Part shown: piece after piece, positions 15,172-46,619 of the stretch | Numbering within the stretch: position 1 is the first letter of the stretch | Layout: the number at the start of each line of letters is the position of its first letter | Source of the DNA: Auriscalpium vulgare | Lineage: Eukaryota; Basidiomycota; Agaricomycetes; Russulales; Auriscalpiaceae | Assembly (NCBI GenBank): GCA_019915015.1 | Contig: JAHBBC010000038.1 | Location: 124,001 to 188,000, forward strand | DNA: 64,000 bases | Direction of reading: 5' to 3' | Position numbers and translations under genes: made by a program | Notes under the pieces: model-generated | The model's input: the letters and a program-made list of their open reading frames with translations, nothing else | What the model was told of the DNA's origin: nothing | Database searches by the model: none

Positions 15172-18100
15172 ATGGCACTCCCGCAATCGCATCCAGCAAC
15201 ATTAGGATCCACAGCATCGCCCTCGCAAGCGCAGACGACCGCAGATAACTCAGAAGACCCGTTCATCGTGCCGGAGCCGCTGGCGATGGCCCTCCCGCCG
15301 GAGGGCATGCACGAGCAGACGCCGGACGCGGAGCGCGGGGTCCAGGATAATGGCCACAGCGTGGCGGAGGCAGAGGATCCCTCCAAGTGAGTCACTCGCT
15401 CTTCCAGATCGCCGTGTACCGTATTGCTGACCGCGGTCGCGATGTGCCCAGGGGTGCCTCAGTGTTTCCGCCTCTCCGGAGTCGAATCATCTCGCATTTG
15501 CCAACGCCGCAGAGGTGCGTGGCCCGTTCCACTCGTCCCATCGCGCCCCTGTTCGATTTCATATTACCTGCTACGCGTCGTTCTACGGCTGTTTCGGTTT
15601 CCACGGCTCACAAGCGGTCATGGCGCGCGAAACTCCCTAGCATGTTGCACTTCCCATTGCCTGCCTATTGTCCTTCCATCTCGCTCCTGAACACCCTGCT
15701 GACCCTCTTTGCACGCAGCCCGACTAATCTCGGTCCATATCTCAACGGGAAATCAGAGTCGCCTCTGAACCATGGGTATGTTGGTTTTAAAGCCGAGCGT
15801 GTCGGCTGGCAATCGCGCACTCATCTCACCGACATTCACATTTGCAGCAGATCGCAAGCGACTCTTTATGATGGAGGTTCAAACATAACGCCGCTGACTC
15901 GTCGGAGCACGGTTGAGAGCGTCCCTGCGGGAACGACAACGGTTCCCAACGCAGCGGCAGGCCAGATGCTCACGCCAGACTCAAGGTGGGTTGCGCATCT
16001 CGATAGTGTTGAAGCTGGACAATATAACCGAGCTTGCATTCTCAGCCCAACGGTGTCCAGCAGGTGGTTGATGCCAGAGCATGCGACGACGCCAACGAAG
16101 CCGTAAGTTTTCCTGCATCCCGAACGCGTGTTGGGAGCTCAAGGTCATCGTCTGCGTAGTCGAAGAAAGACACCCCCGAAAACGCCAAATCGGTCTGCAA
16201 ACGAGTGAGTGTAGTATTACATGGCCGCCGCCGCATCATATCTGACCTGAGCCCCGCAGGTTTGTCTTAAAGACGGAGGCATCGGGAAGCAGCTTGATGT
16301 TCACACCTGTCGCAAAGCCTGGCCTTTCAGCGTCACCCAGCAGTTTGCCCTTATCATCACCGTTTGTGCCTAAAGCATCTGCCGTCGAATTTTCCCCTGC
16401 GCAGCTTCCTGCAGCATCGGCCGCCACACTATCCGCGTCTCCTGTTGTCGACATCCCCACAGTCGAGTCTGGCCGAGCACACTCTGACCCAGCCGCTGCA
16501 ACTGCCTCAAGCCGTCAGCCCGGCGGCGAGATTGAGCGCATTCGCGTAGACCAAGCGCGTGCGCTTGACGAGCACCGCACTGAGACCGAGGCACGACGTC
16601 CCGACTACCTCAAACGAGGCAAACGGCCATTAGTCCCAGATGTCGACGACGTGGGTGTTGGCGTCAAGGAGAGCCCCATGACGGGCCGACGCATTGAGCT
16701 CTGGGGCATCCAAGAGACAAGCGAGGAGAGCTTCGAGGAGCGGCTCATGGCGGGCGGGTATGGCGGTTACGGGAGCACGGGCCCCACGCCCGCTGAACGC
16801 CCGCGCACTCCGACGCCCATCAGACCCGGTGCGCCGTCGCGCGCGCTCGAGTGGGCTAGCATGGCGACGCCTGGGCCGCCCGGCTCGTCGAAGAGCGTTG
16901 GTTCAGCGAGCGCGGGCGGCGAAGACGATGCCGAGACGGTCCTGGACGAGAAGGAGCTGAAGAAGCGGCGGCGCCTGGAGGCGTTCCGGCGGGACGGGAC
17001 GGGCGGGGATTGGCATGCGCGCAGCAAGTCGACGCTGCATCCTGTAGAGGTGGAGGGCAAGGGCCGCGTGCTGCTCGATGTCGGTGCTCAGGAGGTGCCG
17101 GATCTTCTCGATGGCCTCGCTGGTGCGCCGTCGCCCGCGGGGAAGCGCAAGGGCGGGCGCCGCAAGAAGAAGGGCACGACGGCGCCTGCACGTGCAGGCA
17201 AGGCGCGTGCGCGGCTGGAGCAGCGCGACGGCGCTGCGCACGAGGGCGGGGCGTTGAAATGGCCGGACGAGGAGTTCCCTTGGAGCTTGCGCACGCACGA
17301 GCGGCGTGAGCAGGAGCGCATGGAAGAGGCGGAGCGGATGCAGTGGATTGAGCGATTTCTGGAGGCGGACAGCGAGGAGAGCGAGGAGGAAGAGGAGGAG
17401 GACGGCGACGTGTTCCCCATGCAGCTCGATGTCGGTACGCCTGTGTACCCCCGAGGCCGTGGCAAGATGGTGCCGATGAAGGACTATCCGGGGAGCGGGA
17501 AGGGACCGGTACTTATCCCGACCGACCCTGCGGACGCGCGGGCAGCGCTGCTGTCAAAAAGGGCTGTGCGTGCGCTGGCAGCGAAACACCAGTTCCGCGT
17601 GGAACTTCGGCGTGGCGCGGGGAACAGCGAGGACGAAAAGGTGCTGTGTATATGCGGCGGGCGGGACGATGGGCGGGAACTCGTGCAGTGCGACGCCTGT
17701 GCGACTTGGTACCACCTGGAGTGCCTGGGGATCAAAGTTGCCGACCTGGGGCGCGAGGAAGACGCGTGGTACTGTCCCGACTGCGTCCACAAGGGCAACC
17801 AGCTGCCGTTCGAGCCGACGTTCGTGCAGGTAGAGGAGGACTTGACGCCACGGCGACGGCGCGATCCGCTGTTTTTTCAGGGTCCTGAGCAGGCGTCTCC
17901 CGACGCAGCTTGGTCGACGCCCGCGCGCCCGCCAATACCCACCACTCCGACACGTAGCAACCGCACTGCGGTCACGGACCCATCCACACGGTCGTCGTAC
18001 GGCGGGCCGTCCACACCGCAGTCATCCGCGCAGCATGTCCGCGTGTACACGACGCCGGGTGCATTCGAGCACATCTTCCAGCACGCGTCACCGTTCGACC

Positions 18101-18480
18101 CGACATCGACGCCATCGCGCGGGGTCGCCGCGTTCGCGACGCCAAAGGGCGGCAGCGGGGTGTGGGCGGGCGCGCGGCATGGTGCACCAGGCCCGTTCGT
18201 CACGCCGACGCCGACGAAGTACGCGCTCCCGCGGTACACGGCGCACATGGCGTACGGGGCGGCTGCGCGCGCGCCGGAGGGCAGCCCGTACAGGCAGTAC
18301 GACGACACGCCGGTGGACCGCTCGGCGCCGCGCCCGGTCGCGATGCAGCCGCGGCGCGTGATGGACTCGCCGCTCATGGGGCGGGGCCCGGGGAGGAGGG
18401 CAGTGCTGGGGTCGGAGGGGTCGCCGGGGCCCGCGCGGGCGAAGGGGAAGGAGCGGCAGGGTGCGGGCGTGGGGAGATGA
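15172..18480 (+). CDS. PHD-finger protein, probable chromatin reader
   Basis: Seven exons (15172-15386, 15452-15514, 15719-15775, 15851-15985, 16046-16102, 16160-16204, 16260-18480) all keep phase 2 at their junctions and encode about 930 aa. A C4HC3 PHD finger lies near residues 650-700: CICGG, CDAC, WYHLEC and WYCPDC supply the zinc ligands, and the aromatic pattern fits a histone H3 tail reader. Upstream are a Thr/Pro-rich N-terminus, a basic segment (KKRRRLEAFRRD), an RKKKGTTAP basic patch and an acidic run (DSEESEEEEEEDGD). The C-terminus is Thr/Pro/Gly-rich and probably disordered. PHD proteins of this layout act in nuclear histone-modifying complexes (family knowledge); which complex is not evident. 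Confidence 0.85.
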
Positions 18481-27858: not shown

Positions 27859-29170
27859 CCAATGAGTCAGGCCAAAATCTGAACAAATTATAAGTCGCTT
27901 TAGGAAATAGATCCCACGGTCAAGTCGCATCGTCCCACCTGCCTAATTCAGTAATTCTTAGCTAAGTAGCTTCTGCCCAATACCTATCCACATTTTTGCC
28001 CTTCAAAAGACACTCGTTTCTGTGAGTATTTTGTGTTTTGCAAGCCGACCAGTACAGATACACATGTTATTTATATTGTTTTGTAGTCAGAAAAGAAAAT
28101 GCCCCACTTTCCAGTTTTGGTATAAAGTTCCCACAGTATGACACATCAACCGGCACTTTCAACTGACTGCCTGTTACAGCTGATTCCAAAAATGTTGGTC
28201 CGGGCCCGTTACATAAGCGTGTTGGGCCAAGCTCGGAGAGTCGAGCCGCGGGCTACCACCTGTGGCGCGCGCCGGACTTCGGTCGCAGTTCCAAATGCCG
28301 CTGCGTCACGGTGGCGTTGGACGCGAGGACCGCTGCATTGCAGCAGTCGCGCGTGTGCGAGGCTCATATTGCCGCGCAGTGCAGTAGCTGCACTACGTCG
28401 CCATCCCCACGCGGCGCACGGCCAAGCAGTCCCCGCACCCACTGTCGCTCACCGACGAAGGTGGAGAGCCCTCCGCCTTGTCGCCGTTGCCCAGTGCGCG
28501 CCGCGCGGTGTCCAAGATGCCGACGCCCAATCCCAGCCATGATGTGATTCCAAAGATGGTTGCGGTTTGGGTGCACGAGGAGGTCACCGCACCCAAGGTG
28601 GAGTTTACAGCGCGTGATGCTGCGCTGGAGAAGCAGGTTGGGCTGGTCGCCGAGCTCGCTTGCGCGCGCAACGAGGCGCAGCTGATCCAGGACCAATTCT
28701 CAACCAGCTCAAGGACCCACTAAACTACACCCCTGTGAGTTGCGCCCCGCGAGTCTGATGACTCTGCAATGTCTGTGTACCTTCGCAGTTGCACCATTGT
28801 CCAGCTCAGTTCTTGAGCTCGCGCTGTACCGCTCCAATCTCGACTGTTCCACGGTCGTGTCGGGGGCGAGAGCAAGAGGACAAGGACCAGGTATGTGCCG
28901 GGTGGTAGACATGAGGGCGGAGTGTGGGGCACAATGGCATGGACCATGGTGGTAGTCAAGGTAGCAGATATAGCATTGACTTAAACATGCGAGTTGCTCC
29001 AAACAAACACCCGAGCTGCTCAAACTGTTGTAGTTCGATTGTTTCAAAGACATTGTGCTCTTCTCGCTACAGTGGATGGTATACCTTTTACAGTATAAAT
29101 GGATCAAATAATGCAGGCCTTGCTCAGAAACTTCCTCTATGGCACAAACAGCACAAGAGTTCAATCATCG
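27859..29170. other. Repeat mosaic replacing gypsy pol; small coding-like fragment
   Basis: A stretch at about 28,174-28,285 (TTACAGCTGATTCC...) recurs degenerately at about 30,335-30,475, so two copies of one repeat bracket this area. A plus-strand ORF ending at 28,723 (VHEEVTAPKVEFTARDAALE) looks like a coiled-coil fragment without a start or domain. Nothing else is recognised. Confidence 0.4.
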
Positions 29171-31121: not shown

Positions 31122-32162
31122 TGATGGGCACCCACAGGTAGTAGGGTGGTAATGTGTCAGATACCAGATCCCTAGAGCGCTGGTGAGGGTACCGTGATGT
31201 GTGCGAGTGAGCGTCAGGGTCCCGAAGACAATCGGAGTGCGTCTCCGACGAGTGTGGGGAGGTGTGCGATCGGATGCGCTGGTCGGAATGCGTGATCGGT
31301 CGGAGAGTCGTTGATGAGGGGTCGGAGGCGCAGATGCGATGGTCGGAATGTGTGGACAAGTGGTGCGAGTGGTGTGATCGAGGCTGCGACCGCTGCGAGA
31401 CGACAGAGTCAAGACTGCGATCTCCGAGGTCGCAAGACGGTCGGAGCGACGATGAGTTGTGCAGGCAACGACGCAGAGGCGTGTGGACGGTCGGAGGAGT
31501 GGGGACGGTGATCGGAAGATAGGAATGAGTGGTGTGAGCACGCCAATCGATGTTGCGATCGCTGCGGGACGAGCGGAACGCGACTGCGATCTCCGATGTC
31601 GCAAGACGGTCGGAGCGACGATGAGTCGTGCAGGCAACGACGCAGAGGCGTGTGGACGGTCGGAGGAGTGGGGACGGTGATCGGAAGATAGGAATGAGTG
31701 GTGCGAGCACGCCAATCGATGTTGCGATCGCTGCGGGACGAGCGGAACGTGACTGCGATCTCCGATGTCGCAAGACGGTCGGAGCGACGAAGTGCGAGGG
31801 CAACGGCTAATGGGACGACGATGGAACAAGATGAGAGCGAGGAGAACGATAAGCTGAGTGCGGGACGACGACGACAAAGACAAAGGCAAAGGCAAAGGCG
31901 ACAGAGCTAGCCTCGAGCTAACTATACGATAGAGACGAGGCGTTATGGGCGTCGAATGAGATCTGAACCGTGCGGGGGGAACCGAATCTGTATTGCAGCA
32001 TGGATGCGACCGCTATTTATGTGTTTCGACCGCTACAGTGCGAGTCCGATCGAGAATGGAGTCGGAACAAAGGAAAACGAGTCGGAACAAAAGCAAACGA
32101 TGGTGCGCAAGTCGCACATGGTACAGACAATGGGGGAGAGTCCATAGAACATATCAGAAGCC
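31122..32162. repeat. GTCGGA-rich repeat, copy 1 left part, with 169-bp tandem units
   Basis: It begins TGATGGGCACCCACAGGTAGTAGGG, matching 46,832 onward. It contains nearly three copies of a 169-bp unit (31,352-31,850) with AGACGGTCGGAGCGACGA and GATCGGAAGAT. It is interrupted at about 32,162 by the Plavaka-TET element and resumes at about 45,559. It may be an LTR or a non-coding element; ORFs here are not credible. Confidence 0.55.
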
Positions 32163-32185
32163 TCTGGAAACCCCCTCCCTCCTTA
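32163..32185 (+). repeat. Left terminal inverted repeat of the Plavaka-TET element
   Basis: TCTGGAAACCCCCTCCCTCC followed by TTA aligns, with one indel and one mismatch region, to the reverse complement of 45,536-45,558. Subterminal AAGGTC/AAGGCC motifs follow on both sides. Confidence 0.6.
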
Positions 32186-32568
32186 TAAGGTCATATAGTG
32201 TATGCATAAGGTCTTATAATGTCTTACCAAGCTAAGCATCAGCTAAGGTTAGCTCATACTTAGTCAGGCCTTATTGAGGCCTTAATCAGTCTCAATAGTC
32301 CTACAGTAAGCCAACTGTTTTCATGGAGACCCAGCCAGCAGCTCATCATAAGAGCTCAGTAAGATCACAATATGCACACATGGAGAGACACATGACAGCA
32401 AAAAAGAGCCAAACTCAGATCACATTCAACACACTATAAGGCCACAGTAAGCATACAGTGGGGTCCGCACTGTACTCGGTAAGGTGCACCAAAGAACAAA
32501 AAAAGGAGGCCCTGTTGAAGGAAGCCCGCCACCCATGCACCCTCCACCACCACACTATGCGACCCTGC

Positions 32569-35493
32569 CTACTCCAAGCCCTCCGAACCAAACTCCTTGT
32601 CGAACGCATCGTTGTCCACCGCATCGCCCTTGAGTTCCAACTGGTCGTCCTCGTCTTCAGTGAGCATGGCATCCTTGCCCGCATTCTTTGACCTACCAAT
32701 CACATCACATTAGTTCCATTTCTGAATAAAGAAGAAGAACGCACTAGCGTGTACAGCTTGGCCATGTAGTTGGAGTAGGCGGCAGGGTTCCTTTTCTTCT
32801 GACGGCGTAGGGTGTCCCAGTGCTCCGCATAGACATTGGCAAATGTGTCCGCCTTGAAATCGATCACACTGCCGGCCTTGTGCTGCAGAGCATACGCAGC
32901 AAGGCCTGCATCAATCTGCGCAATATTTCAGCGCAGCGCACACCAATAGACGATAAACGTACGGCGGTCGCCGCCAGGGCGACCATGGCTCTCGGCAGCT
33001 CGGGCTTCTCCTTGTTCTTCGACTTCGCCTCGTACATCTTGCGGGGAAACCTTGGCGAGGCCTTCGGGCCGAAGCAGACCTGGTAGATCAGCTCCGGGAT
33101 GGCGGGGTGGCAGAACGGCCTGCCCGTATTAAACTCTAACGTCTGCGGGCAAAGGTCCATGCATATTAGCGCACAGCATCAATAGAGGGGCTGTTACTCA
33201 CAGCCAAGCTCCCAGGGAAGATATACAGCCGCCGCTCCGGCTCGCGCGCTTTCTTCATGTTGCGGACATACTTGTGCTCGGGGATCTTTTCGAGCTCGTA
33301 GAGGGGCTTGACGAGGATGTCGGCTGCATCCTTCCATTTCTTGCGGTAATTGGACACACGAGCCAGGGGCTATGCTGTCCATGCGGCGCGCATTAGCAAC
33401 GATAAGCACCCAGGGACAGCTGCCACGCACTATCTGTATCATTTGCTTGACGTAGGCCTCGTCCTTCTGCAATCGCTCTGCGATGCCGGCTTTGTCGAGC
33501 TTGACGGCCGCTCGGATGAGCCCTTTTTGAAGATGGTCGACACGGCGGTCGGGGTGCGGAAATGCCGTCTCGAAGCATATAGAATAGGGGACCTCATCAG
33601 CGGCTGCGCTGGTGATGACCTCGTGGACGTCCGTCGACTGGTCGCCCAGCGCCATGCGGGTGCCTCGGACGCGCTTGATGTTCGTCGCTGGCGCCCACTT
33701 GCCCTGCTCCGACGGTGCCGCGTCGACGAACCCCTCATCCCACACGTCTGGCCGCGAGGGAGTGCCCTTGAGATCACCCGTGGTACAATAGATTAGCAAG
33801 GTCTGCCAACGAGAGTGCTGCGCGCACTTGCCTCGTCTCGCGCACCACGCGCGTGCTCGCTTCGATCCTTCGTGCCCTTTGATGGTGCCCGAGCGGCTGC
33901 AGCGGAGGAGACGCGCGCATGGTCTCCACGCGCTCTCTCGTCCTCCTGGTCTGATTCATATCCCTGTCCAGTGACATAAGCCCACGCGTCAGTAAGGGTC
34001 GCGCATGCACAGACAGGCGAGCTGTGCTTGCCTCGGTGGTCGACGGATGGGCGGACGACCCGGCGCGCGCGCTATGCGAGTTCGTCGGCGCCGGCGTGCC
34101 CCTCATTGCAGCGTAAGGAGCTTGGCCATCCTTCGTCTTCGGTGTCTGCCCAGCATTGAAGGATATGAGTCAACATGGTCACCCACAGAATGCGGATCAC
34201 AGCGTACCTTGCTGCCCACGGTCGTGCTCACGCTCCCGATGCGCTGTGAATTCGACAACCCCGGCGTGCCCTTGGTGAGAGCGTGGGGCGTCCGGCCCTC
34301 CGTCGTTTTCGGTGCCTGTCCAGCAGTGAGGGATGTCAGTCAACATGGGCTCCATAGAACAAGGCTGCTCGCTACGCGCCTTGCCCGCCGTGCTACCCTG
34401 CTTGTTCTGGGAGTGCGTGCTTTTGCGGGCGTCGCTAGGCTTCGGGGCGTAGTTGAGGTCGAAGTCGGACAAGGCCTCGTCAGCCAGCGCCTGCAGTTCG
34501 ACGTCGCGGGCGCTGAGTGGCACAGGAGAGGCGCCGTGTTCCCATTGCGGGACCTAAGTCGCACGACGGTGAGCGTCTGTATGCACAGCGAGAAAAGTTA
34601 ACTGACGCCTGCCTTGAACTGTCTATCCACCCTCTTCTTGCGCGGCGCACCGCTCTCATCCTCTTCGCTGGACGGGACGACCCAGACCTCCTCTTTGTCC
34701 CACCCTGCCTCGTCGGCGTCGTTGTCCTCGGCCGAGGACCCTCCTCGCGGGTCGACGTCATCGGCCGGTGTCGACGACCGCCCAGCGTCCGGTCGCCACG
34801 CAGGGCTGGCGTCGCGGCTGCTGACGCCTTTGGCAGGACAGAGCAGTCGGCTCTCAGTGCCACATTTGTCTATGGATGGCGTGTACGCACCACTCGACGC
34901 GCTAGGCGCCTTGCGACCCTGAGCCGCCTTCGCCTTCTTTGTCGGCGCCGAGGCAATGGTCCCAGCCGTCAGTTGTTCAAGGTCCTCGACATCCGCCGCG
35001 TCGTTGGCGGTGTTTGCCGAGGCTGGCGTGTCTCGTCTCGTTGGTCAGTGCCCATGTCGCCGCAGCCAAAGAAGGGGCACTAACCGTGCTTTTGTTTCTT
35101 GGCAGGTTTAGTCTGCACTGGCGCAGCGCGTGGGCTGCCTCCACGTTCGTTCGCGCGGCGTGGCACCACAGATGTCTTCTCAGCAGCTATACGACGAAGC
35201 ATCAGAGTGTGTCACCTGCGCCAGTAGTGAGTTGTTCTTGCCTTTGCTCGTGGGCTTTGACAGACGTTGACCTGTGGCACAGCTCGTTCAGCGCTCTCGA
35301 TCCATCTCGACGGGCGATACTGCTCACTTCTTTTTGCGGGCGGGCCCTCAAGCGCGCTGGCCGCCGACATCTTTTTCCGCGCTATGGTCCGGGAGCGCTT
35401 TTGAGCCGGGGTGAGGTCGGGGGTTGGCGGACGACCGGCCGAGCCCTCGCAATCCTCGTCGCTGCTCACCGCAGCCTGTCGCTTTTGGGGCAT
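32569..35493 (-). CDS. DUF6532-like accessory protein of the Plavaka-TET element
   Basis: Multi-exon gene. Exon 1 35493-35328 (MPQKRQAAVSSDEDCEG) continues through exons rich in Lys, Ser and acidic residues (PTKKAKAAQGRKAP, SSEEDESGAPRKKRVD), with probable nuclear-localisation patches. Two neighbouring exons near 34,140-34,310 encode the same motif (PKTTEGRTPHALTKGTPG and PKTKDGQAPYAAMRGTP), an internal exon duplication. The C-terminal domain (33,780 to 32,850) reads VPYSICFETAFPHPD, LIRAAVKLDKAGIAERLQKD, DILVKPLYELEKIPE, FCHPAIPELIYQVCF and YEAKSKNKEKPELPRAMVAL. This resembles DUF6532, an abundant Agaricomycete domain of unknown biochemistry. It ends EFGLEGLE/EFGSEGLE at TAG 32,571-32,569. 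One donor appears to be GC. Exact inner exon borders are approximate, and the domain call is moderate. Confidence 0.6.
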
Positions 35494-35703
35494 CTTCGCA
35501 CAAGAGCGTGCCGATGGGCGACTTTGCGAAGGGGAAGGGATTAAGAGAGGTGAGCGGTGCGATCTTTTTTTTTATGTCTCTAATGCGTCGATCATCGAGC
35601 TGACTCGGAGCAGGGCTCGTTACGGTGGAAACGCGTGGCACGTCCCTGAATCTCCCCCGCCCGCCGCCCGCAGCTAGCAGCCTCACTCAGCATTCAAGCC
35701 TCC

Positions 35704-38700
35704 ATGCCCCGACGGAGGCCGACTGGCTTGAAGAAACGCAGCCACGCCGGGGAGCGCATACCCTGTGGCGGCTGCAACAAGGCGTTCTGGTCGTCTGGTC
35801 TCAGCAAGCATCTGCGCCAAACGACTGACCCGCGCTGCCTGCAGTATCGCGCCCGCCGCCACGCCTCATCCGACGAGGATGCATCCAGCAGCGACGAATC
35901 CCAGCCGCATGCCGGCCCGTCGGCACGCTCGCGCACCCCCTCGGCGGCTTCCTCAGACATTGACATGGACGATGAATACAGCGACCATCTGCTTGACATT
36001 GACGAAGGTAAGCCCTTGCTTTCATCTCCGCATGCGTGCTCCCAGACCTTGCCACAATGACAGGAGCGGCTTTGCTGGCGGATATCGCGCCAGGCGCACT
36101 CGACGGGGAATACCTGGGCTGGGGCGACGAAGACGAAGACGAAGTCGCAGCAGCCGCTGCTGCGGCCGGCGCACCCGACGAGCCCCCTGATGACGACGAA
36201 TTTGATGAAGAGGACGACAATGCACTGCGCGACGCACTCGACGGGCATGCTCCAGAAGTCAACGCTGTCTTCTCCCCAGATGCAAACATCCCGGAGGAAC
36301 CGGAGCAGGATGTCCCCGAGTTTCCGCTGCTCGACGACGCAGAAGCCGAACTCCTCGAGCAACAGCAACGTATGGCCGACGAAGAAGAGCTCGTACAAGA
36401 CCCGAAGGTCGTTCACTTTGGCGGCCTGGCCGGCGCGCCGCTCAACGAAGAGGCACCCGGCACGTATCACTCGTACCGCGCGACCCTCAACAACACGGGC
36501 CCTGCCAGTCTGTGGGCCCCGTTTCGAAGCAAACTCGAGTGGGAGGTCGCGCGGTGGGCCAAGATGAGGGGGCCGTCCTCGACAGCATTCACCGAGCTGC
36601 TCCAGATCGACGAGGTGCGTACTACTTCTCGATGCCTGGTGCGCTCAGTGTGGTGACTCGTGTGCCATGGCGGCAGGTGCGCGACAAGCTCGGGCTGTCC
36701 TTCAAGACGTCAGCCGAGCTCAATAAGATCGTCGACGAGCAGCTTCCGCCGGCCCCCGAGTTCTCCTGCGAGGAGATCGTCGTAGACGGGGAGACTTATG
36801 AGGTCCACTCACGCGACATCATGGAATGCGTCAAGGAGTTATATGGCAACCCCGAGTTTCTCTCTACGATGAAGTTCGCGCCCGAATCCCACTACGCCGA
36901 TGAGGAGCAGACCGTGCCGGTGTACAGCGAAATGAACACCGGGCGGTGGTGGTACTCAATGCAGGTGCGTCGTAGCCTTTCTCTGCCTATTCGCATGTGT
37001 ATCTAACCCCACCCTAGGCACGGCTTGAGCAAAACACACCTGGCGCAACAGTGGTGCCGCTCATACTCTCATCCGACAAGACTTTAGTCACGCAGTTCCG
37101 CGACAAGTCCGCCTACCCCCTGTACCTCACTATCGGCAATATATCCAAGGATATTCGACGACAGCCTTCCAAACGTGCCCAAATACTCATCGGCTACCTC
37201 CCCACCGCTCGACTCTCCCACATCGCCGACCCCGAGACCCGCCGCCGTGCGACCGCGAACCTGTTCCATGCATGCGTACGCAGAATCACCTCCCCCACCC
37301 GAGCGCACGCATTGTGCGGCATCCCGATGGCCAGCGGAGATGGAGTGGTGCGCCGTTGTCACCCGATCTTCGCGGTGTTCATCGGTGACTATCCGGAGCA
37401 AGTGCTCGTCGCCTGTGTGAAGACCGGGGAATGTCCGAAGTGTACAGTCGATTCCACCGAGCTTGGCAACCCCGCCGGCGCGCCACTGCGCAGCATCACT
37501 GCCACACGCGCGGCGCTGAGGACTCTCGAAGACGGGCCCGAGGCGTACATCGAGGCGTGCCGCGTTGCAGGCATCAAGCCCGTTTACCATCCATTCTGGG
37601 AGATTCTCCCTCACGCGAACGTCTTTCACGCAGTCACACCAGATATCCTCCACCAGCTCTACCAGGGGATGGTCAAGCACCTGCTGTCTTGGCTGATGGA
37701 CACGTTTGGCGCCGCCGAGATCGATGCGCGCTGCAGGCGCCTCCCTCCTAACCACAACGTACGCCTGTTCAAGAACGGGCTCTCCATCTTGTCGCGGGTC
37801 TCAGGACAGGAGCATAAAGACATCTGCCGGATCTTGCTGGGCGTCATCCTCGATCTGGAGCCTCCGGGCGGCGTGCCGGCCATACATGTCGTCCGTGCTG
37901 TGCGCGCCCTTCTCGATTTTCTCTATCTGGCACAATATCCGTCCCACAGCGAGTCCACGTTGAAGTACCTCGAGAAAGCCCTCAAGAGCTTCCATAGCAA
38001 CAAGTTCATCTTCGAGCAGCTAGGCATTCGCGAAGGGTTCAACATACCCAAGCTCCACTCCCTGTCCCACTACATTGCCTCCATCCGCGCGTTCGGCACC
38101 ACAGACAACTACAACACCGAAGCGACCGAGCGGCTGCACATAGACTACGCCAAGGACGCCTATCGATCAACCAACCACAAGGACGTGTACCCTCAAATGA
38201 CGAAATGGCTCGTGCGCCGGGAGCAAATTCTTCGACACGCCAACTTCGTTTCCTGGAGGATTCAGCGCGCCGCAGAAGTTGCCATAGCACCTGCTGCCCC
38301 CACCATTCGCCCGCGCGTCCACGTCGCACGCATCCCAAACTTCAAATCGGTTACCTTTGCACAGCTCGGCGTCCGTTACGGGGCCGTGGACTTCCAGGAG
38401 GCTCTCGCCGCTTACATCCTCGAGGAGACGCACCCCGAGTACTCATCTGCCCAGGTCGCCAACTTGGCCACCGGCATGGATCTCACTTTCAAATCGGTCG
38501 CCGCATACAACTCTATCAAATTCTGGTTGGGCGATCCGCAGGAACGCGAGGACGCGCCGGACGTGCGCGATGCAATCCATGCTCGGCCCTCATATCTCGA
38601 CACGAGAGGCCGCGCCGTGCCTGGCCGGTTCGATACCGCACTCGTCAACGTCGCAGACGGAGGCAATTCAACGGTTGCAGGTTCGTTGTGTATATCGGCT

Positions 38701-39100
38701 GTCGCGAGCTTCCCTGACCTATTTGGCTCGCCGCGCACCAGGATATCAAGTAGGCCAAGTTCGTGTCATATTCAGCCTGCCGGTGAAGGCGCGCGCGGCC
38801 GCGTTCGCCCCTGGCTACGAGGGCCCCATCCACTTGGCCTATATCGAGTGGTTCACGCCGTTCGCCCCCGCAGCAGAGCCGAATCACCTGATGTATCGAG
38901 TGGGCCGCAAGTATCGGGCTGGTCATCGTAGGCACGCAAGCGTGGTCCCAGTGGAGAGAATTCAGCGTAGCGTCCACCTTATTCCGAGGTTTGGTCTGCA
39001 TGCTCCCCGACATTGGACTTCAGCCAATGTCCTTGACAAATGTCATATTTTTTACGTCTCTTCTTTCGTAGATCGGCACACATATATCACAATATACTAG
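35704..39100 (+). CDS. Plavaka-family DDE transposase, apparently intact
   Basis: Five exons (35704-36007, 36064-36614, 36677-36964, 37018-38680, 38742-39100) join in phase to about 1,054 aa. An N-terminal zinc finger uses Cys21, Cys24, His36 and Cys45 (CGGCNKAFWSSGLSKHLRQ). A very acidic Asp/Glu-rich region follows. The transposase core begins near residue 395 (SSDKTLVTQF, YPLYLTIGNISKDIRRQPS). Conserved catalytic blocks are IGDYPEQVLVACVKTGECPKC, TPDILHQLYQGMVKHL (about residue 587) and TERLHIDYAKDAYRSTNHKD (about 751), which contain the candidate Asp, Asp and Glu residues. The C-terminus (LAYIEWFTPF, SANVLDKC) matches the severed Plavaka copy. No internal stop or frameshift was found, so it may still be functional. 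It lies between a divergent DUF6532-like gene and a convergent small gene. Confidence 0.9.
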
Positions 39101-39286
39101 CTCTTTTGTTTGGGATCCTCTGGCTGCCCAGTGCACTCAAGTAAGGCGGCCACAATTGAATTGAATTAGGGCATAAGGCCTGAGAAACGCGATGGCACAG
39201 TAAAGGTAGTGGATGTGAGTTAGGCATAAGGCCAGAGACAACAAGGGAGTGCAGCGAAGACGTGGTAAGTTACGCTGATGGACGAG

Positions 39287-40067
39287 TCACAGGGCTTCCT
39301 CCTCAACGGCTTCATCGAAGCCGATGTGTGCCCCGCCAAAAGGGCTCATGGGCGGCAGGATGTAGGGCGGGGTCGGCGGCTGGACTGGCGGCGGGGTGGA
39401 AGGAGGAGAGCTCCCTCGAGGACGACGGGCGCGCGGGCGCGGCGCGGGAGTGAGGGGCGTGAACGGCACGTCATTGTCCTCGCCGGATAACGTGCCAAGT
39501 GCCGCGATGTGGGAGCTGGGCAATGTGGGGGCCACGCCCGTATGCAGCGGTGGAGATGTAGGGGGAGTACGCAGGCCGATCGACGGCTGCGCGGTGGCGA
39601 ACACAACCGGCGAACTGCCAGCGAAAAGGATGGGTGAGTCGCGCTGGGGGATAGAGGGCAGAATGTGGGCGAGGGGGCCGGTAAGAAAGGCGGGGGCAGC
39701 CGTGAAGTGCGTGGGGGTGGGAGCGGCCAGCGTGGGCGCGCTGGAGGCGATGGTGGGCGTGAGGGTGGGCGCGGGGGCGGCGGGGACGAGCGGCGGCATG
39801 GGTGCTTCAACGTCTGCGACGACAGGGGCGGCGGCGGGGTCAGGTGGCGGCGCGAAGGTGGGGGTGTGCTCGGCGGCTGGGCCGTGGGCAAAGAGCGGCG
39901 TGGCGCCCGTTGTTGGGAAGGAGTGGAGGGTGCCGGACCACCAGGGTGGTAGCTGAATGGCCTGCCAAACGTAGAGGATGAGTGCGTCAGTAGCACTTCA
40001 GTTGTCTGCCACGCACATAGAAACCGGGGGCGCCGAGGAAGATGTTTATATTTGCTTGATGAGCCAT
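39287..40067 (-). CDS. Pro/Ala-rich protein of the Plavaka-TET element, unknown function
   Basis: Exon 1 (40067-40017, MAHQANINIFLGAPGFY) and exon 2 (39961-39287) join in phase across a GTGCGT..TTGGCAG intron, giving about 241 aa. The first 50 residues look ordered (AIQLPPWWSGTLHSFPTTG). The rest is Pro/Ala/Thr-rich and ends with an acidic EEAVEEEAL tail preceded by an Arg-rich patch (PAPRPRARRPRG). It converges with the transposase gene and diverges from the 40,241 gene. No family recognised. Confidence 0.6.
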
Positions 40068-40240
40068 GGTTGCAGCAAGGAAGAGAAAGGCGCCAGACGA
40101 CGCCAAGGCAAAGTGGCATCTCGCGGCAGAGCGCGTGGCTGTGCGGGCGCTGACGCGTCGACGGCAAAACTCAATCTTGACCCTCAGCGCTCGCTACACC
40201 TTGCTTGCGCCACCTGCGTCGACTTCCCCACATCCCTACT

Positions 40241-41343
40241 ATGCCCTCGAACACTCTCCATATTTTATTGCCCAGGCCTGGACAGCTCAAGCTCGAATAC
40301 ATTCCCGAAATCAACCCTGTCACCGGGCAGCCTAGTCCTCTGGTGGGACGCCCGATAAGCCCCGACTGCAACTCCATGCTCACTGCCCCTGCTCTGTCCA
40401 GTTCCTCGAGGTGTCCGGCTGCCAGCTCATAAAACCAGAGCCGCCCGAAGACAACAACCAACCGCAGGCAGGGCAATATCAGGGGTCAGCGAGCAGCGCC
40501 ATGAGAGAGGGGAGAGTCAAGTCCGAGCAACGGTGAGCGCCCCGCACTGGCAATCATGACACCTGCCGACACATTTTCTATTACTGAACTCCTGCGGGCA
40601 GGTCTCTATCGCACTCGCTGTCGGCGCCCCGAAGCATCCATGTCGCCGCCGAGGGCGTGTCAGGCGATCCGCCCGCTACTCCTCGTCGCGAGAGCGCTGC
40701 CGAGGGCGTGTCAGGCGATCCGCCCGCTACTCCGCGTCGCGAGAGCGCCGCTGAGGGCACGCCAGGCGATCCGCCCGCTACTCCGCGGCGCAAGAGCGAC
40801 CCATTCGTACTGCCAGACGATGCCTCGCCGGCTTGCGAAGACGCATCAATGCGCGACAGCAGCCCGTTGGATACCCAGATAGCAGGCACGCAGCTCACCT
40901 TCTTCTCGGGCTCCAGCCAGTCGTACACGGAGCCCGACTCGGACGCCATTGATCCGCTCACCTTCGTGTCCTCGTCGCTGGCCCCATCGTCACCTGAGCA
41001 AGTTGCAGACCGCGAGGACTCGCAAGCCTTGGAGGATTCATCCAACTCGCTGAGTGCAGGCACGCAGTTGAGGTGCGCCGCAATCAACGGACAGCCTCGG
41101 CATGCACTGACTTCTAATCAACACCGCAGTGCAGGTCGAGACATGGTCCCCACCTCGCGGTTGCGCGCGGCATCGCGGCTGCGGACGCCTGTGAGGTATC
41201 GCGGTAGTGCCGATGACACGATAGACTCGCCCGTCACTCCCGCCAAGCGACGCCGCGAGGGCGACCACCCGGACTCCGAGCCCCCGCGCTCCCGGGCCAT
41301 CCGTGCTCCTACATTCACGGCGAGGTATAGTGTACCTCACTAG
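40241..41343 (+). CDS. Basic low-complexity protein with tandem 17-residue repeats
   Basis: Exons 40241-40342, 40402-40532 and 40602-41343 join in phase to about 324 aa. The N-terminus is MPSNTLHILLPRPGQLKLEY. Three tandem copies of a 17-residue unit (EGVSGDPPATPRRESAA) occupy roughly residues 93-143, each offering a T-P-R-R-x-S site. A Ser/Asp-rich middle follows, then a C-terminal basic segment (DSPVTPAKRRREGDHPDSEP) that looks like a nuclear localisation signal. A DNA-binding or chromatin role inside the transposon is inference. No domain recognised. Confidence 0.6.
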
Positions 41344-41631
41344 CACCTGCCTTATCCAGTAGGGGTCGTTGTCTGCTCTTAGTTAGGTAGCCGAATACTA
41401 TATCTTGCAATCGAGAAAGCGAGCAAACGAGCAGGGCGGTGTGCGCTCAATGAAAGACAACACAATGTAATCATATTGGGGCGAGCGGGCAAGGCGTACG
41501 GATGACAGAAAGTACACTAAACAGGCCGCGGCGCATGCTAGTAGGATGGCAGGAGCTACCAGGCAGTTCATTAGCTGCAGAGTAAATGAGCACTTCGAGG
41601 TCTCCGGACCTGCAAAGTCACAGGCGCACCT

Positions 41632-42386
41632 TTATACTGCCTGGGCTTCTGTCCCATCGACTTCCGAGGGATTGCCTGCGCGGCTCTGCTGCGCTCCCCT
41701 CAGCACGGCCTCGACACCCTGGACCAGGGCGACTGATTCATCGATGGTGACCGAGGAGCGGGCATTGGCACTGCGCGCGAGGCTGAGGCGCAGGGTGATG
41801 GTGCGCACGACGGGTGGGCCGGCGTGGCCCTGGCCTTGAGGAGTCTGCGTTGAGGGATCCACAGGCGTGTGGGTGCACAGAGCCGTGCTGTTTGGGGTGA
41901 CGAGCGCATCCAGAGCCTGGACATCGGCCGACAGTCAGCCTATGCACCGAACATTAGAGCTTGCTGCGCACCAGGGACCCAATGTCAGGGAGGTCGACTT
42001 CAAGGACGATATGCGAGAGGGTGTTTGACTGGGTCATCGCAGCGGTAAGTCAAGAGAGATAAGAGTTCGGGCGTGTGACACGTACCGCGCGTGGTGTCAC
42101 ACTTGAAGCTGGAAGGCGCGTAAGTAGGGAATAAGGGAGCCAAAACGGGCTCTGCAAACATGCGCGTTCAGCCAGCGCGTTCTAAGCTGAGGGAAAAAAG
42201 ACTCATACCTGCGGGGCCGCTGTGCTGTGGGCCGTAGAAGAAGAACTTACCCACTGTGCACATAACAGCGCCAAGATGGCCGCGGCCATAGTGCGCTTGA
42301 AGGCCGGTGGCAACGCTGACAGACGCCGTGATCGTCTCTGCAGGAATGCTGCCAGAACCCCGCCAGAGCGCAAGCGCCTTCGCCAT
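41632..42386 (-). CDS. Small protein of the Plavaka-TET element, unknown function
   Basis: The last two exons are clear: 42037-41972 (MTQSNTLSHIVLEVDLPD) and 41916-41632, joined in phase across a GTGCGC..TGTCCAG intron, encoding 116 aa with a conserved-looking centre (VVRTITLRLSLARSANARSS, TIDESVALVQGVEAVLRGA). Further upstream on the same strand, an ATG at 42,386 opens MAKALALWRGSGSIPAET and continues to CTVEPVLAPLFPTYAP via a plausible intron, which may be the true N-terminus; the final junction to 42,037 could not be brought into phase. Start therefore uncertain. It is divergent from the dioxygenase gene. Confidence 0.45.
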
Positions 42387-42437
42387 AAAGCGGCGGTGCG
42401 CGTCGCCGTCGCGCCATCCACTGCTGCTCTCCCCCTT

Positions 42438-42463
42438 CCCCCCCCCCCCCCCCCCCCCCCCCC
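42438..42463. repeat. Poly-C tract of about 26 bases
   Basis: An uninterrupted cytosine run between the small minus-strand gene and the TET upstream exons. Such tracts are prone to length change and sequencing error. Confidence 0.8.
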
Positions 42464-42605
42464 GCGCCGCCGCCCACCGCCTCTCGCTGCACAACGCTCC
42501 ACCTGAGTACTCAAACACCGTCTGAAAACGCGTCAAGGCGCGCGCGACTGTCTCGGGCGGGTGCACGACGCTCCTCCTGCTTGCCCCGCGCGCCGCAGCC
42601 CCAGG

Positions 42606-43220
42606 TGAGCGCTCCTTTGCCCACACGTCCTGCACGGCGCCGATCCCGGCCCCTCTCGACGCGTGGGCTGCCCTGCTGTTGCTCCTGCTCCGCGCTGACG
42701 ACGCGCCCTCTGCCTCGCACAGGTACATCGCAGCCCAGGCCGACTCTCGCACGTCCGGCGCGCCCCAGCTCGCGGTGAGTGCTGCTTCGCGCGCGCATCT
42801 TGCACGGAGCCGATCCCGGCCCCTCTCGACGCGCGCGCTGCTCTGCCCATAGCTGCCCTCTGTGCTAACGATGCGCGCGTCGCTCCACGCAGGTACATCG
42901 CGAGCCAGGCCAACTCTTGCGCGCCCGGCGCGCTGCAGCCCCAGGTGAGCACTCCTCCGCCCGCGCGCCATGCATGGAGCCGCTCCCGGCCCCTCTCGAC
43001 GCGTGGGCTGACCTGCTGCCGCCCCTGCCCCACACTGACGCCCCACGCAGGTGAAACGCCGCCCAGGCCGAACCCTACGCGTCCAGCGCGCTCCTGCCCC
43101 CGGTGAGTGCTCCTTTGCGCCCTTGTCTTGCATGGGGCCGACCCCGGCCCCTCTTGACATGCGCGCTGCTCTCTCTGCGGCTGCTCTTTGTGCTGACCAC
43201 GCGCTGTCTGCCCCGACCAG
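42606..43220 (+). repeat. Four tandem exon-intron modules upstream of the TET/JBP gene
   Basis: Four successive units of about 150-170 bp each consist of a GTGAG(C/T) donor, an intron with the shared core CCCGGCCCCTCT(C/T)GACGCG, a pyrimidine/CAG acceptor and a 49-52-base exon. The first three exons read GTACATCGC(A/G)(A/G)GCCCAGGCC-like or GTGAAACGCCGCCCAGGCC; the fourth leads into the ATG at 43,249. Donor and acceptor are kept in every copy. The exons are not multiples of three, so inclusion or skipping would change the frame. Confidence 0.65.
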
Positions 43221-43248
43221 GTGCATTGCCTCCAGCCCTTCCAAGACT

Positions 43249-45096
43249 ATGGCTTCGGCCTTGAAGACGGTAAGCTCGGCACGCTAGCTCTGCGCGCAAG
43301 ATGTGCTGACGGCCCTGCGCACAAGCAGCTGCGATCACGGAGGCGGTACGGGACGTACGCCGAAAGGCTCTTGAACGACGCTGTCAAGACCTACGCCGCC
43401 GCCGACTTTGACCTCGAGGCCGCACTGGCGGCGTCTGCCCAGGAGCAACGCGACCAGGATGCCCGAGAGCAGCAGGACGCCGACTCACAGCAGCACGCCC
43501 TCCCGGCGCCAGCCCCTTTGCACTCATCCAAGTGCCCCAGCAGTAGCACGCGAGCCACGCCCCGCCCTGCCGCAGGCAGAGCTCGCCTAGCCCAGCCCAG
43601 CGCCGCAAGCAGATTGCCCGCCGCCGCCGCCCCGCGCGCCGACGAAGCGTCGCAGCACGCCCATTCACGGATTACTCGGCTGCTCCGGCGACGGCGCGAG
43701 CGCGCTGAGCACTCCCCTTACGGCCTGCCGCCCGTAACGCCTTGAATGGCCACCGTGTTCGCATCTCAGCCCACCCTGCCGACCGCGCAAGACGCAGCTA
43801 GCCTGCCAGTTGCGAAGAAGGCCTTCGTGGCGCGGGATGGCGTCCACCCGTCAGCCCTACCCTACCTCGGGAAAGAAGTGCCGTTGGAGACGTTCAAGGA
43901 CGTCCTGAAGTTTGAGGTTAAAAAATGGAACGGAGGGTGCGTGATGACCTGGATGTCCGCCTACAGCGTTGCTTACGCCGGCGCTGCAGCCACTGCGAGT
44001 CTGTGGCCGATCGAAAGGGCCGAGTGCTCGTGCAGCTCGTGGCACCGCCACGGCACGATCCCTCCTGGCCGAGCGTCCCTGCTGGGGCTAGCTCGGAGCT
44101 GCGGGCGGCAGCGGCGGCGTGTCCCTTCTCGCCCGACCAGCTGCGCCACGCGCGTGGCCGCTACCCCGCGCTGTCAGCGGGGTATTCGATGGGAGGAGGC
44201 CCTAAGGTACGCCCGCACTTACCCCTGGACGGCACGCTGATGCTAATATGGCCAATCTAGAGGCCTCACAACGTCAGCTTCTACAATGACGACCAGGCTG
44301 CGGTGGCGCAGGGCCTCTTGGACAGCAAAAACGTTGGCCGCATCGTGGGCCTGGGGAGCAGTACGTGATCAACTCCGAGCACCCCTTCGTCGACCGACGC
44401 TGACGCCCGACATCTTCAGGTGCTCTGGCTACTTTCAACTACGACACCTTCGACCACTACGGGCGCGTCCTTCAAGACGTCCGATCGCGACAGCCGGAGC
44501 TCCGAGCCCCATTCCACAACAGCGTCTTCCCCACAGTCACGTTCAACTTCGGGCCCCGCGCCGTCACAGTGCCGCACCGCGATGCGAAGAACGTGCCATA
44601 CGGCTGGTGCGCCGTGACAGCACTGGGAGACTTCGACTACGAGCGCGGAGGGCACCTCGTGCTCTGGGACCTGCAGCTTGTCATTGAATTCCCGCCGGGT
44701 GCGACAATCCTTCTTCCCTCGGCTCTCATAACGCACAGCAACGTTGCCATCCAGCCTGGGGAAACCCGCCAGTCCATCACGCAGTTCTGCGCTGGTGCTC
44801 TGATGCGGTGGCATGCGTATGGATTTCGCTTGGAAGACACGATGCGTCAACAGGATCCAGCCCTCGCGCAGGCCTTCGACGACAGCGCCTCTACGAGATG
44901 GGTTGAGATGCTAGCGTACTTGCCGACGTGGGATGGGGTTGAGGGGCCATCTGGGCCTGCCTCCGAGCAGCCTGCGACGCCGGAGCCAGGGCTCATCGCG
45001 GCGGCCCCCGTCCAACTCGTCGAGCCCTGGAGCGGGGCCATCAGACCTAAAGAGACAAGAGTAGTGGTGTCGGTGCCGACAAATTGCACGCTATAG
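43249..45096 (+). CDS. TET/JBP-family 2-oxoglutarate/Fe(II) dioxygenase
   Basis: Exons: 43249-43269, 43326-43733, 43770 to about 43924, about 43925-44206, 44261-44360 and 44420-45096. The catalytic core reads NSVFPTVTFNFG, VPHRDAKNVPYGWCAVTALG (HxD iron ligands), FDYERGGHLVLWDLQLVIEF, PSALITHSNVAI (distal His) and ETRQSITQFCAGALMRW (Arg that would bind 2-oxoglutarate). This is the pattern of fungal TET/JBP proteins, whose animal and trypanosome relatives oxidise 5-methylcytosine or thymine in DNA. Upstream lie a CxxC-like segment (RRRCSHCES) and a basic region (ITRLLRRRRERAEHS). Odd points: exons 2 and 3 join only via a 36-base intron that skips a stop, and at about 43,925 the frame changes (FEVKKWNGG to RRVRDDLDVRL), either through a cryptic intron or a frameshift. 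The catalytic exons themselves are uninterrupted. DNA substrate is inference. Confidence 0.8.
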
Positions 45097-45535
45097 CATG
45101 TGGGGGTTTGGTGGGCGCAGAGCCTGAAGAGTGCGGCGATGGACAACTTGAGTCTTGACAAGTAAATTACTAGTGTAGTACTATATAAATTCTTGGGACC
45201 ATGGTAAATGTGAAGTGGTCTGATAAAGGCCTCAGTTGTTTGTAGCTACAGGTGGCCCCCATTGCCATCCTGTGTCCTGCCAGTGGGTGCCTAGTAGGGG
45301 AGGAGCTGTGTCCGCATTTGTCATGGGTGTCTGTCACATGTGACCATGTGTGACTCATATCGTCTGCTAATACACCCACAGCTTGGATGAGCTCTTGTGT
45401 CCTTTGCTGACATCCTTGGAGGCTGAAATTTGGTGCACAGGGTCCTTGGCATGTCTGCTAGCCGCCCTCAAAATTGCGAGGCCTGATTCCTTCATTTAAA
45501 ATTCCTGGGGTGGTAAGGTGCTAGTATGTAGCTGG
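45097..45535. other. Right subterminal region of the Plavaka-TET element
   Basis: Non-coding AT-balanced sequence between the dioxygenase stop and the right terminal repeat, with TATATAAA and TAAAGGCCT motifs resembling the left subterminal region. No ORF. Confidence 0.5.
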
Positions 45536-45558
45536 TAAGGACAGGAGGGGTTTCCAGA
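45536..45558 (-). repeat. Right terminal inverted repeat of the Plavaka-TET element
   Basis: Its reverse complement TCTGGAAACCCCTCCTGTCC followed by TTA mirrors the left end at 32,163. Confidence 0.6.
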
Positions 45559-46619
45559 TGAGGTCTGCGATGCTGTAGAGAACAATGTGGAGCAAGTGAT
45601 CAGCGCTGTCAGGAGGGCAGTGCAAGCGCATGGAAAACGATCTGCGCTGTCAAGAAGTGTGAGAGAGACATCCTACAATGTCAAACAAGACAATATGACC
45701 AGAACAGGAGACAATGGAGGTGTGGCGAATGGTAGAATGCACTCCGACGTGCGAGGGGGTCGCAGGTGAGTGTTGCAATCTTGCGACTCGTTGAACAGTC
45801 GGAAGAATGCTCCGGTGTTGCGCGTGCGATGGTCGGAACGGTGGAGGGATAATCGGAGCGCTGGTCCGACCGCAGAACGATCGGGATCGAAGGAATGTGG
45901 CGCAAACTCGAGAGCTGGGCTAGACAATGGTCGGAGGACAATGGCGCAACTGTGGGGGTACTCGGAAGTCGCAGAGACGTCGGGGAGACATAGCGCACGT
46001 GCTGAAACGATGATCTCGACGATCGAAATGTCTGATGGAATTCCGACGTGTTGTGACAACTGTGGGAGACGCTGTGCTCGAGGTCGCGTGGCGGCAGTCG
46101 GAACGATGAGCGAGTGGTCGGATGACTGCGTGTGATGCGTGCGACGGAGTTGCTGGTCCAAGCGTGGTGTTGAAGGTATGATTCCGATTGCGCGACAGCT
46201 CTGTGAGACTCCAACGGTCGGAACTCTGGCTCCGATCTTGCAAGCGGTCGGAGGAACCAATCGGGCGGTCGGAGCACTGCTGCGTGACGCTGCGATCTCC
46301 GGAATTGCGTATCTGTTGACTTGACGAAAGTGCGAAAATTCCGTAACGATCGCCTCGCAGCGCGGGGCGAGGCGTATCACCGCGCACCCATGCCCGTTGT
46401 CCACCGTCACTGCGTGCCCATGCCCGTTGTCCTTGATGCGTGCCCATGTGCATCGCCCCTTGGTGGTAGTCTTCGTTGTGCCCATGCTGTCTGGTCGTTG
46501 CACAGCTGACTAGGGTGTTGGTGAGATGACAGTGATGGTGGGAGGATGCAGGGGAGGTATCGCGGTTGGTGAGGTGGTAACAGGGCGGAAGCCGTGAAGC
46601 GTGTTGAACCTGAAGGCCA
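45559..46619. repeat. GTCGGA-rich repeat, copy 1 right part
   Basis: It begins TGAGGTCTGCGATGC and contains GATCAGCGCTGTC, shared with 47,440 onward, then many GGTCGGA motifs. It continues the repeat interrupted at 32,162. Overlapping ORFs on both strands are compositional. Confidence 0.5.

Follow-up and report, generated by a model that had tools for sequence, protein, structure and literature searches.

A 13.4-kb Plavaka-kind transposon of Auriscalpium vulgare with a gene for a TET-fold dioxygenase

The 64,000-nucleotide stretch of Auriscalpium vulgare (Russulales) DNA analysed here (contig JAHBBC010000038.1, positions 124,001 to 188,000; hereafter the window) contains, at positions 32161-45560, a 13,400-bp element that is a genuine, complete transposon with a gene for a TET-fold dioxygenase. 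That this gene and a Plavaka transposase are carried by one mobile unit is well supported. As for function, we consider it fairly probable that the dioxygenase of this Plavaka-kind unit oxidises methylated bases and lowers the silencing of its family. The limits, taken from a second copy, further element ends and uninserted sites, and the main genes are as follows (window coordinates).

32159..32160, no strand: left target-site duplication AG, equal to 45561-45562; the joined flanks are uninterrupted at 36 other listed places
32161..32185, plus strand: left terminal inverted repeat, starting CCTCTGG in the window and CATCTGG in most other left ends found
32595..35493, minus strand: DUF6532 gene of several exons, with approximate limits and a possible start at 35493, in head-to-head orientation to the transposase gene
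35704..39097, plus strand: Plavaka transposase gene, several exons; PF18759; D-D-E with CxxC and H3H
43197..45096, plus strand: TET-fold dioxygenase gene, several exons, start uncertain; weak PF12851 match, fold modelled for a relative
44404..45096, plus strand: catalytic exon, with HRD at 44575-44583, the second His at 44734-44736 and Arg at 44767-44769
45536..45560, minus strand: right terminal inverted repeat, ending CCAGATG
45561..45562, no strand: right target-site duplication AG, from the comparison of element ends and uninserted sites

The genome searched comprised 51.6 Mb in 96 contigs, and element ends, like the tandem arrays described below, were examined in a subset of its stretches. 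In the window the inverted ends extend over 23 bp with 83% identity, and the 12-mer TCTGGAAACCCC is found as a single perfect copy at each element end. A chance origin of these repeats was rejected: the control with shuffled windows is weak by itself (2 of 100 shuffles reached an equal number of 12-mer matches at up to one mismatch), and the second copy and the uninserted sites were decisive. Among the nine occurrences of the 12-mer in the genome, two pairs span about 13 kb, namely that of the window and that of C32:222465-235894. The search for further copies with the same ends, which a preliminary description of this DNA had proposed, thereby yielded a near-identical copy on C32, which aligns with positions 32163 to 45560 at 99.7% identity over the left 5.5 kb and 98.9% over the right 7.9 kb. 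The terminal inverted repeats claimed in that description are real, and comparison with C32 and the further ends places the true limits at 32161 and 45560. From the further ends read, the terminus is CATCTGG..CCAGATG.

Compared by eye, seven of the eight elements with both ends found, that of the window included, are flanked by 2-bp duplications (window AG, C32 TA, C10 TT, C22 GT, C51 TA, C52 TT and C17 AT; none in C8); by hand calculation, any one of these matches would arise by chance with a probability of 1 in 16. When the flanks of the C32 copy were joined, six other places in the genome covered all 210 bases and one covered bases 4-210, at 99-100% identity. The joined flanks of the window element were found over their whole 117 bases at 86-99% identity in 36 of the 40 listed places, and two further listed matches are the window's own flanks. 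Since these target repeats exist elsewhere without the insertion, the element must have moved as a whole, which confirms the earlier claim that transposase and dioxygenase belong to a single mobile element. A pair of inverted repeats of about 100 bp (28757-28857 and 45867-45981, 71-76% identity) flanks the element, with one arm on each side, both outside it.

The Plavaka transposase and the DUF6532-like gene named in the preliminary description are both clear by Pfam profile. The window transposase gave two PF18759 matches (E 2.5e-22 and 2.5e-85; scores of 80 and 287 bits, the cut-off being 26.3). Its motifs follow the order D, D, CxxC, HxxxH, E, the C(2)C and H(3-4)H pairs lying after the second D and before the E, and the set is complete in the window. 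In an alignment of 19 transposases, the second D, both C, the second H and the E are present in all 19, the first D in 18 (with one gap) and the first H in 16. In the window copy the long frames of the transposase are open. The C32 copy has a split in its transposase frame and a break in the N-terminal frame of its dioxygenase. Of the 18 gaps that separate it from the window copy, 16 consist of one base absent from C32, which suggests assembly error. The DUF6532 gene carries a PF20149 match on 32864-33178 (E 6.9e-9), and parts of it are conserved in the C10 relative; a homologue search with one of its exons returned nothing at E 0.001. A second Plavaka transposase fragment is found at 62643-63845 of the window (minus strand, PF18759 E 6.1e-79), and a related dioxygenase locus lies near it, just outside the window (C38:191577).

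The queried catalytic stretch of the dioxygenase is 100% identical between the window and C32. With PF12851 (Tet_JBP) the window protein scored 19.6 bits, below the cut-off of 34.9, and 19 of the 33 members of the dioxygenase family alignment A1 matched at E 0.01 or better. A profile of the family searched against PDB sequences recovered no TET enzyme, its matches appearing only at E 0.33 and above, which we took as chance. The modelled fold of a relative is closest to TET enzymes, with CcTet as the top structural match. The proposed link to TET therefore rests on this modelled fold and on weak Pfam matches. The preliminary description had called the enzyme TET/JBP-type; the fold speaks for that assignment and the Pfam match is weak, and because the Tet_JBP cut-off was not reached, the enzyme is named here TET-fold, or TET-like.

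Its claim that all catalytic ligands are present agrees with our reading. The HxD...H iron ligands and the Arg that binds 2-oxoglutarate are found in 29 of 30 close loci, the window included. Counted without gaps from the Asp ligand, Asn at +3 and Cys at +9 are present in 43/43 genome loci (the window's own locus, L014, being left out of this count) and in 120/120 retrieved relatives. The ligand itself is Asp in 42 of the 43 loci and in 119 of the 120 relatives, the remaining relative having Asn and none Glu. Two published types were rejected on these grounds: the AG type, to which CcTet belongs (Gly or Ser at +3, Asp at +9), because all loci and relatives have Asn and Cys, and the PE type (HxE), because Glu occurs in none of the 120 relatives. 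Across the close set, Ala or Ser occupies the position that matches His1904 of TET2 and Arg393 of CcTet (R+8). The dioxygenase is kept in many Plavaka elements and is under purifying selection. At locus L034 (C38:216623-217123), Tyr replaces the Asp ligand and that copy is probably inactive.

Two features were noted upstream of the catalytic exon.

43404..43436, plus strand: DFDLEAALAAS motif in the N-terminal part, from sequence reading and without Pfam support
43743..43745, plus strand: in-frame TGA in the window copy, upstream of the catalytic exons

Because of the TGA, a reading of all the genes as intact was rejected. In the C10 and C25 relatives the frame continues at this position, and a shorter window dioxygenase might begin at 43746. 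Close matches to the DFDLEAALAAS motif occur in 20 of the 30 loci L013-L042; its absence from the distant loci L043-L054 was not used as evidence, the stretches in question holding little upstream sequence. We take the motif to resemble a ubiquitin-interacting motif. Pfam gave no family above cut-off for the N-terminal stretch of the dioxygenase or for the short open reading frames (ORFs) of the element.

To assess linkage over the genome, matches were merged into loci (dioxygenase, 106 rows to 104; Plavaka, 91 to 70; DUF6532, 77 to 48). The list for KDZ transposons held 108 loci after merging, came from part of 168 matches and excluded apparent second halves; KDZ linkage is a lower bound. Among the 47 dioxygenase loci with at least 55% identity to that of the window, 31 lie within 15 kb of a Plavaka locus, as do 4 of the remaining 57; the zones within 15 kb of Plavaka loci make up 3.9% of the genome. 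Within a radius of 10 kb, Plavaka is nearest to 28 of these 47 loci and KDZ to at least 2. For the 47 loci at 36-55% identity, KDZ is nearest to at least 24 and Plavaka to 2, and the 10 loci below 36% have neither Plavaka nor a listed KDZ within that distance. Two distant relatives at 28-30% identity, L050 and L051 (C34:54834 and C6:979537), without Plavaka or listed KDZ within 10 kb, are perhaps host genes.

The young copies carry a mark that may reflect host methylation. Between window and C32, 21 of 27 substitutions are CpG/TpG or CpG/CpA transitions (positions 40600-40830, a tandem array, were left out), while 19% of the element's bases are in CpG. Other pairs of TET-bearing elements gave 16/28 (L031/L033), 7/11 (L039/L040) and 1/10 (L020/L021), and other repeats within the examined loci gave mixed values, from 2/45 to 7/13. 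The whole element has no CpG depletion (observed/expected 1.02), and the genome has C5-methylase profile matches. With CpG transitions making up most of the differences between the two young copies, the element seems to be targeted by methylation.

Taken together, these features suggest the following mechanism. A transposon of the Plavaka kind, moving as a 13.4-kb whole, would be mobilised by the DDE transposase that it encodes, and the host would methylate its CpGs. The dioxygenase would then oxidise the methylated bases, most likely 5-methylcytosine (5mC), given that the enzyme shares with human TET2 the Asn that contacts N4 there; this oxidation would lower the silencing of the element's own family. 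The enzyme need not act only in cis, as any copy could serve others; such action in trans would let copies with a damaged dioxygenase, for example that of the window, still be mobilised. An anti-silencing role is likely, and a demethylating self-defence plausible. The preliminary description had named, as evidence to the contrary, elements with the same ends that never contain the dioxygenase, or dioxygenases consistently outside such ends. For the clade of the window element the outcome favours a single mobile unit: in all eight elements with both ends found, compared by hand, the dioxygenase was inside the ends, and 31 of the 39 Plavaka loci with at least 56% identity have a dioxygenase within 15 kb. 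Against it, the other eight of these 39 loci have none so close, nor has any of six loci of a more distant Plavaka clade.

Several observations weigh against this mechanism. All six loci of the distant Plavaka clade (45-47% identity) have DUF6532 no more than 8.5 kb away and lack a dioxygenase within 35 kb; Plavaka can therefore do without the enzyme. CpG decay strikes the TET-bearing elements themselves with no visible protection, so that any protection is incomplete. With Ala or Ser at R+8, the base pocket differs from that of TET2 and CcTet and the substrate is uncertain. Finally, the window dioxygenase has its premature stop.

These points bear on two alternatives. In the first, the dioxygenase is a passenger or serves another step, such as a DNA modification made at the element ends or at the target while the element transposes, or has a substrate base other than 5mC (N6-methyladenine or thymine; JBP acts on thymine). 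The persisting CpG decay and the related elements without dioxygenase are in its favour, as is Ala or Ser at R+8, unlike TET2, NgTet1 and CcTet (PMC11040006). Asn at +3, shared with human TET2, favours 5mC instead; purifying selection also speaks against a passenger, and the spread of the gene among different transposon groups suggests a general benefit, for example anti-silencing. We regard this first alternative as rather unlikely. In the second, the element is dead and has no present consequence, the dioxygenase being truncated here by the stop at 43743-43745 and the C32 copy having a split transposase frame and a broken N-terminal dioxygenase frame. Against it stand the open long transposase frames of the window, the probable assembly origin of the C32 gaps and the identical or near-identical copies in some related subfamilies, which imply recent movement; it is less probable still. 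A host gene family merely lying near transposons, with the window element as a chance capture, could be suspected since 48 of all 104 dioxygenase loci have neither Plavaka nor KDZ among the matches listed within 10 kb (Plavaka is nearest to 30, KDZ to at least 26), but it is very improbable given two copies moved as whole units, a close set linked to Plavaka and a distant set to KDZ, and eight elements holding the dioxygenase inside their ends, and the uninserted sites refute it for the window element.

In quick trees made from a subset of loci, the window and C10 transposases group with C17 (support 0.939), far from C25, whereas their dioxygenases group with C25 (0.986) and C17 falls elsewhere; the C25 group has a different gene order as well. 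Because the two trees disagree, exchange of the dioxygenase between Plavaka subfamilies is suggested. The DUF6532 gene has another distribution: 33 of its 48 loci have a Plavaka locus no more than 15 kb away, and in 29 of the 33 the two are arranged head-to-head, copies without dioxygenase included. It looks like a core accessory gene of Plavaka, older there than the dioxygenase because the distant Plavaka loci keep DUF6532 and lack the enzyme.

The other features of the element are listed below.

39287..39997, minus strand: proline-rich ORF, without support as a gene
40174..40613, no strand: stretch conserved in the C2 relative, at 69.8% over an alignment of 417 bases that starts at 40198; ORFs match on both strands, and the coding strand is uncertain
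40644..40798, no strand: 51-bp tandem repeat, 3 copies, from the repeat analysis
41635..41934, minus strand: short ORF conserved with the C17 (47%) and C10 (38%) relatives
42583..43016, no strand: GC-rich tandem repeat with 2.6 copies of a 170-bp unit, situated upstream of the dioxygenase gene and perhaps a cis target

The element is conserved with C10 at the transposase and the dioxygenase, at ORF 41635-41934 and the upstream tandem repeat, and in parts of the DUF6532 gene; most of the middle is not conserved. ORF 39287-39997 had no match in the C10 or C2 comparison, a weak negative given that low-complexity masking was on and the ORF is proline-rich. The gene content supported consists of the DUF6532, transposase and dioxygenase genes plus two short stretches that are conserved in some relatives; the four accessory genes and six-gene layout of the preliminary description are not established. 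Elsewhere in the window, a long ORF at 16246-18477 (plus strand) has a PHD finger (E 1e-11) and is possibly a host gene.

In four close subfamilies (window/C32, C10, C17 and C2), which are the close subfamilies with more than 1.5 kb of upstream sequence examined, arrays of 115-170-bp units precede the catalytic exon by about 1.2-1.4 kb; distances were taken by hand. The window and C10 arrays are related, and those of C17 and C2 gave no match to the window array. In the other subfamilies no array of 90-250-bp units was found within the 1.5 kb or less of upstream sequence examined, and a distant-type dioxygenase locus in L004 had none in 4.5 kb upstream. By analogy, the array may be a cis target or docking site of the dioxygenase. 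In Arabidopsis, the VANC proteins of VANDAL transposons strip methylation from the transposon's own copies, and their targets are fast-diverging noncoding tandem repeats (PMC10398659). VANC is not described there as an oxidase, in the parts of the text available, whereas the present element encodes a putative one, and its link to tandem repeats is only a guess.

The association of fungal TET/JBP genes with transposons, which the preliminary description took as known, is already in print; the comparisons here draw on parts of the main texts of the papers cited. Kojima 2025 (PMC12730594) described TET-bearing Plavaka in Agaricus bisporus and Gymnopus confluens (Agaricales), all PlavakaB, placed Plavaka under the PE-type enzymes (HxE), listed only Kyakuja with TET for Boletales, Polyporales and Russulales, and proposed escape from methylation. 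According to the same source, Iyer 2014 implied a Plavaka-TET/JBP association in other fungi, and that set may have included the present enzyme type. The published PlavakaB elements resemble ours in the C(2)C and H(3-4)H transposase, the target-site duplications (2 or 3 bp there, 2 bp in our element) and a TET/JBP gene inside the ends. They differ in the host order (Agaricales, ours Russulales) and in the enzyme, which is HxE in theirs and in ours an HxD enzyme with Asn +3 and Cys +9. The termini agree in part: CATCA..TGATG was published, against CATCTGG..CCAGATG here, so that the first four bases are the same and the fifth is not, and the left end of the window element has CCTC. DUF6532, present in the Auriscalpium vulgare element, is not mentioned in the available main text of that paper; both Plavaka and DUF6532 are named among extra domains in two Ganoderma species (PMC8955403).

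The AG-type TET/JBP enzymes of Kyakuja and Zisupton elements, among them Coprinopsis cinerea CcTet, likewise have a TET fold and HxD and are transposon-borne, but CcTet has Gly331 and Asp337 where the present enzyme has Asn and Cys. The genome of the window holds a separate set of 11 Tet_JBP loci above cut-off, and the four that were read all have Gly and Asp. A 2026 review (PMC13297926) states that transposon-borne TET/JBP enzymes are not yet characterised, and the parts covered of the Plavaka papers contain no description of the present enzyme type or of a DUF6532-Plavaka link. The novelty lies less in the six-gene layout than in the type of dioxygenase, in how numerous it is and in the exchange that elements appear to have made of it. 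A possible but less likely reading is that HxD with Asn +3 and Cys +9 marks a fourth, unnamed type of transposon-borne TET-fold enzyme, which would be commoner here than the AG type, swapped among Plavaka subfamilies, common to Plavaka and KDZ, and anti-silencing; the diverging upstream arrays of the four subfamilies would perhaps be docking or control sites, as are the targets of VANC.

If the enzyme acts on DNA, mushroom-forming fungi possess large numbers of TET-type enzymes whose base pocket is unlike that of CcTet and which are spread by at least two transposon groups. With its defined ends, duplications and uninserted sites, the element is usable as a test case. Given such activity on DNA, these enzymes would form a natural series for studying how transposons counter cytosine methylation and whether the enzyme of one element aids its rivals.
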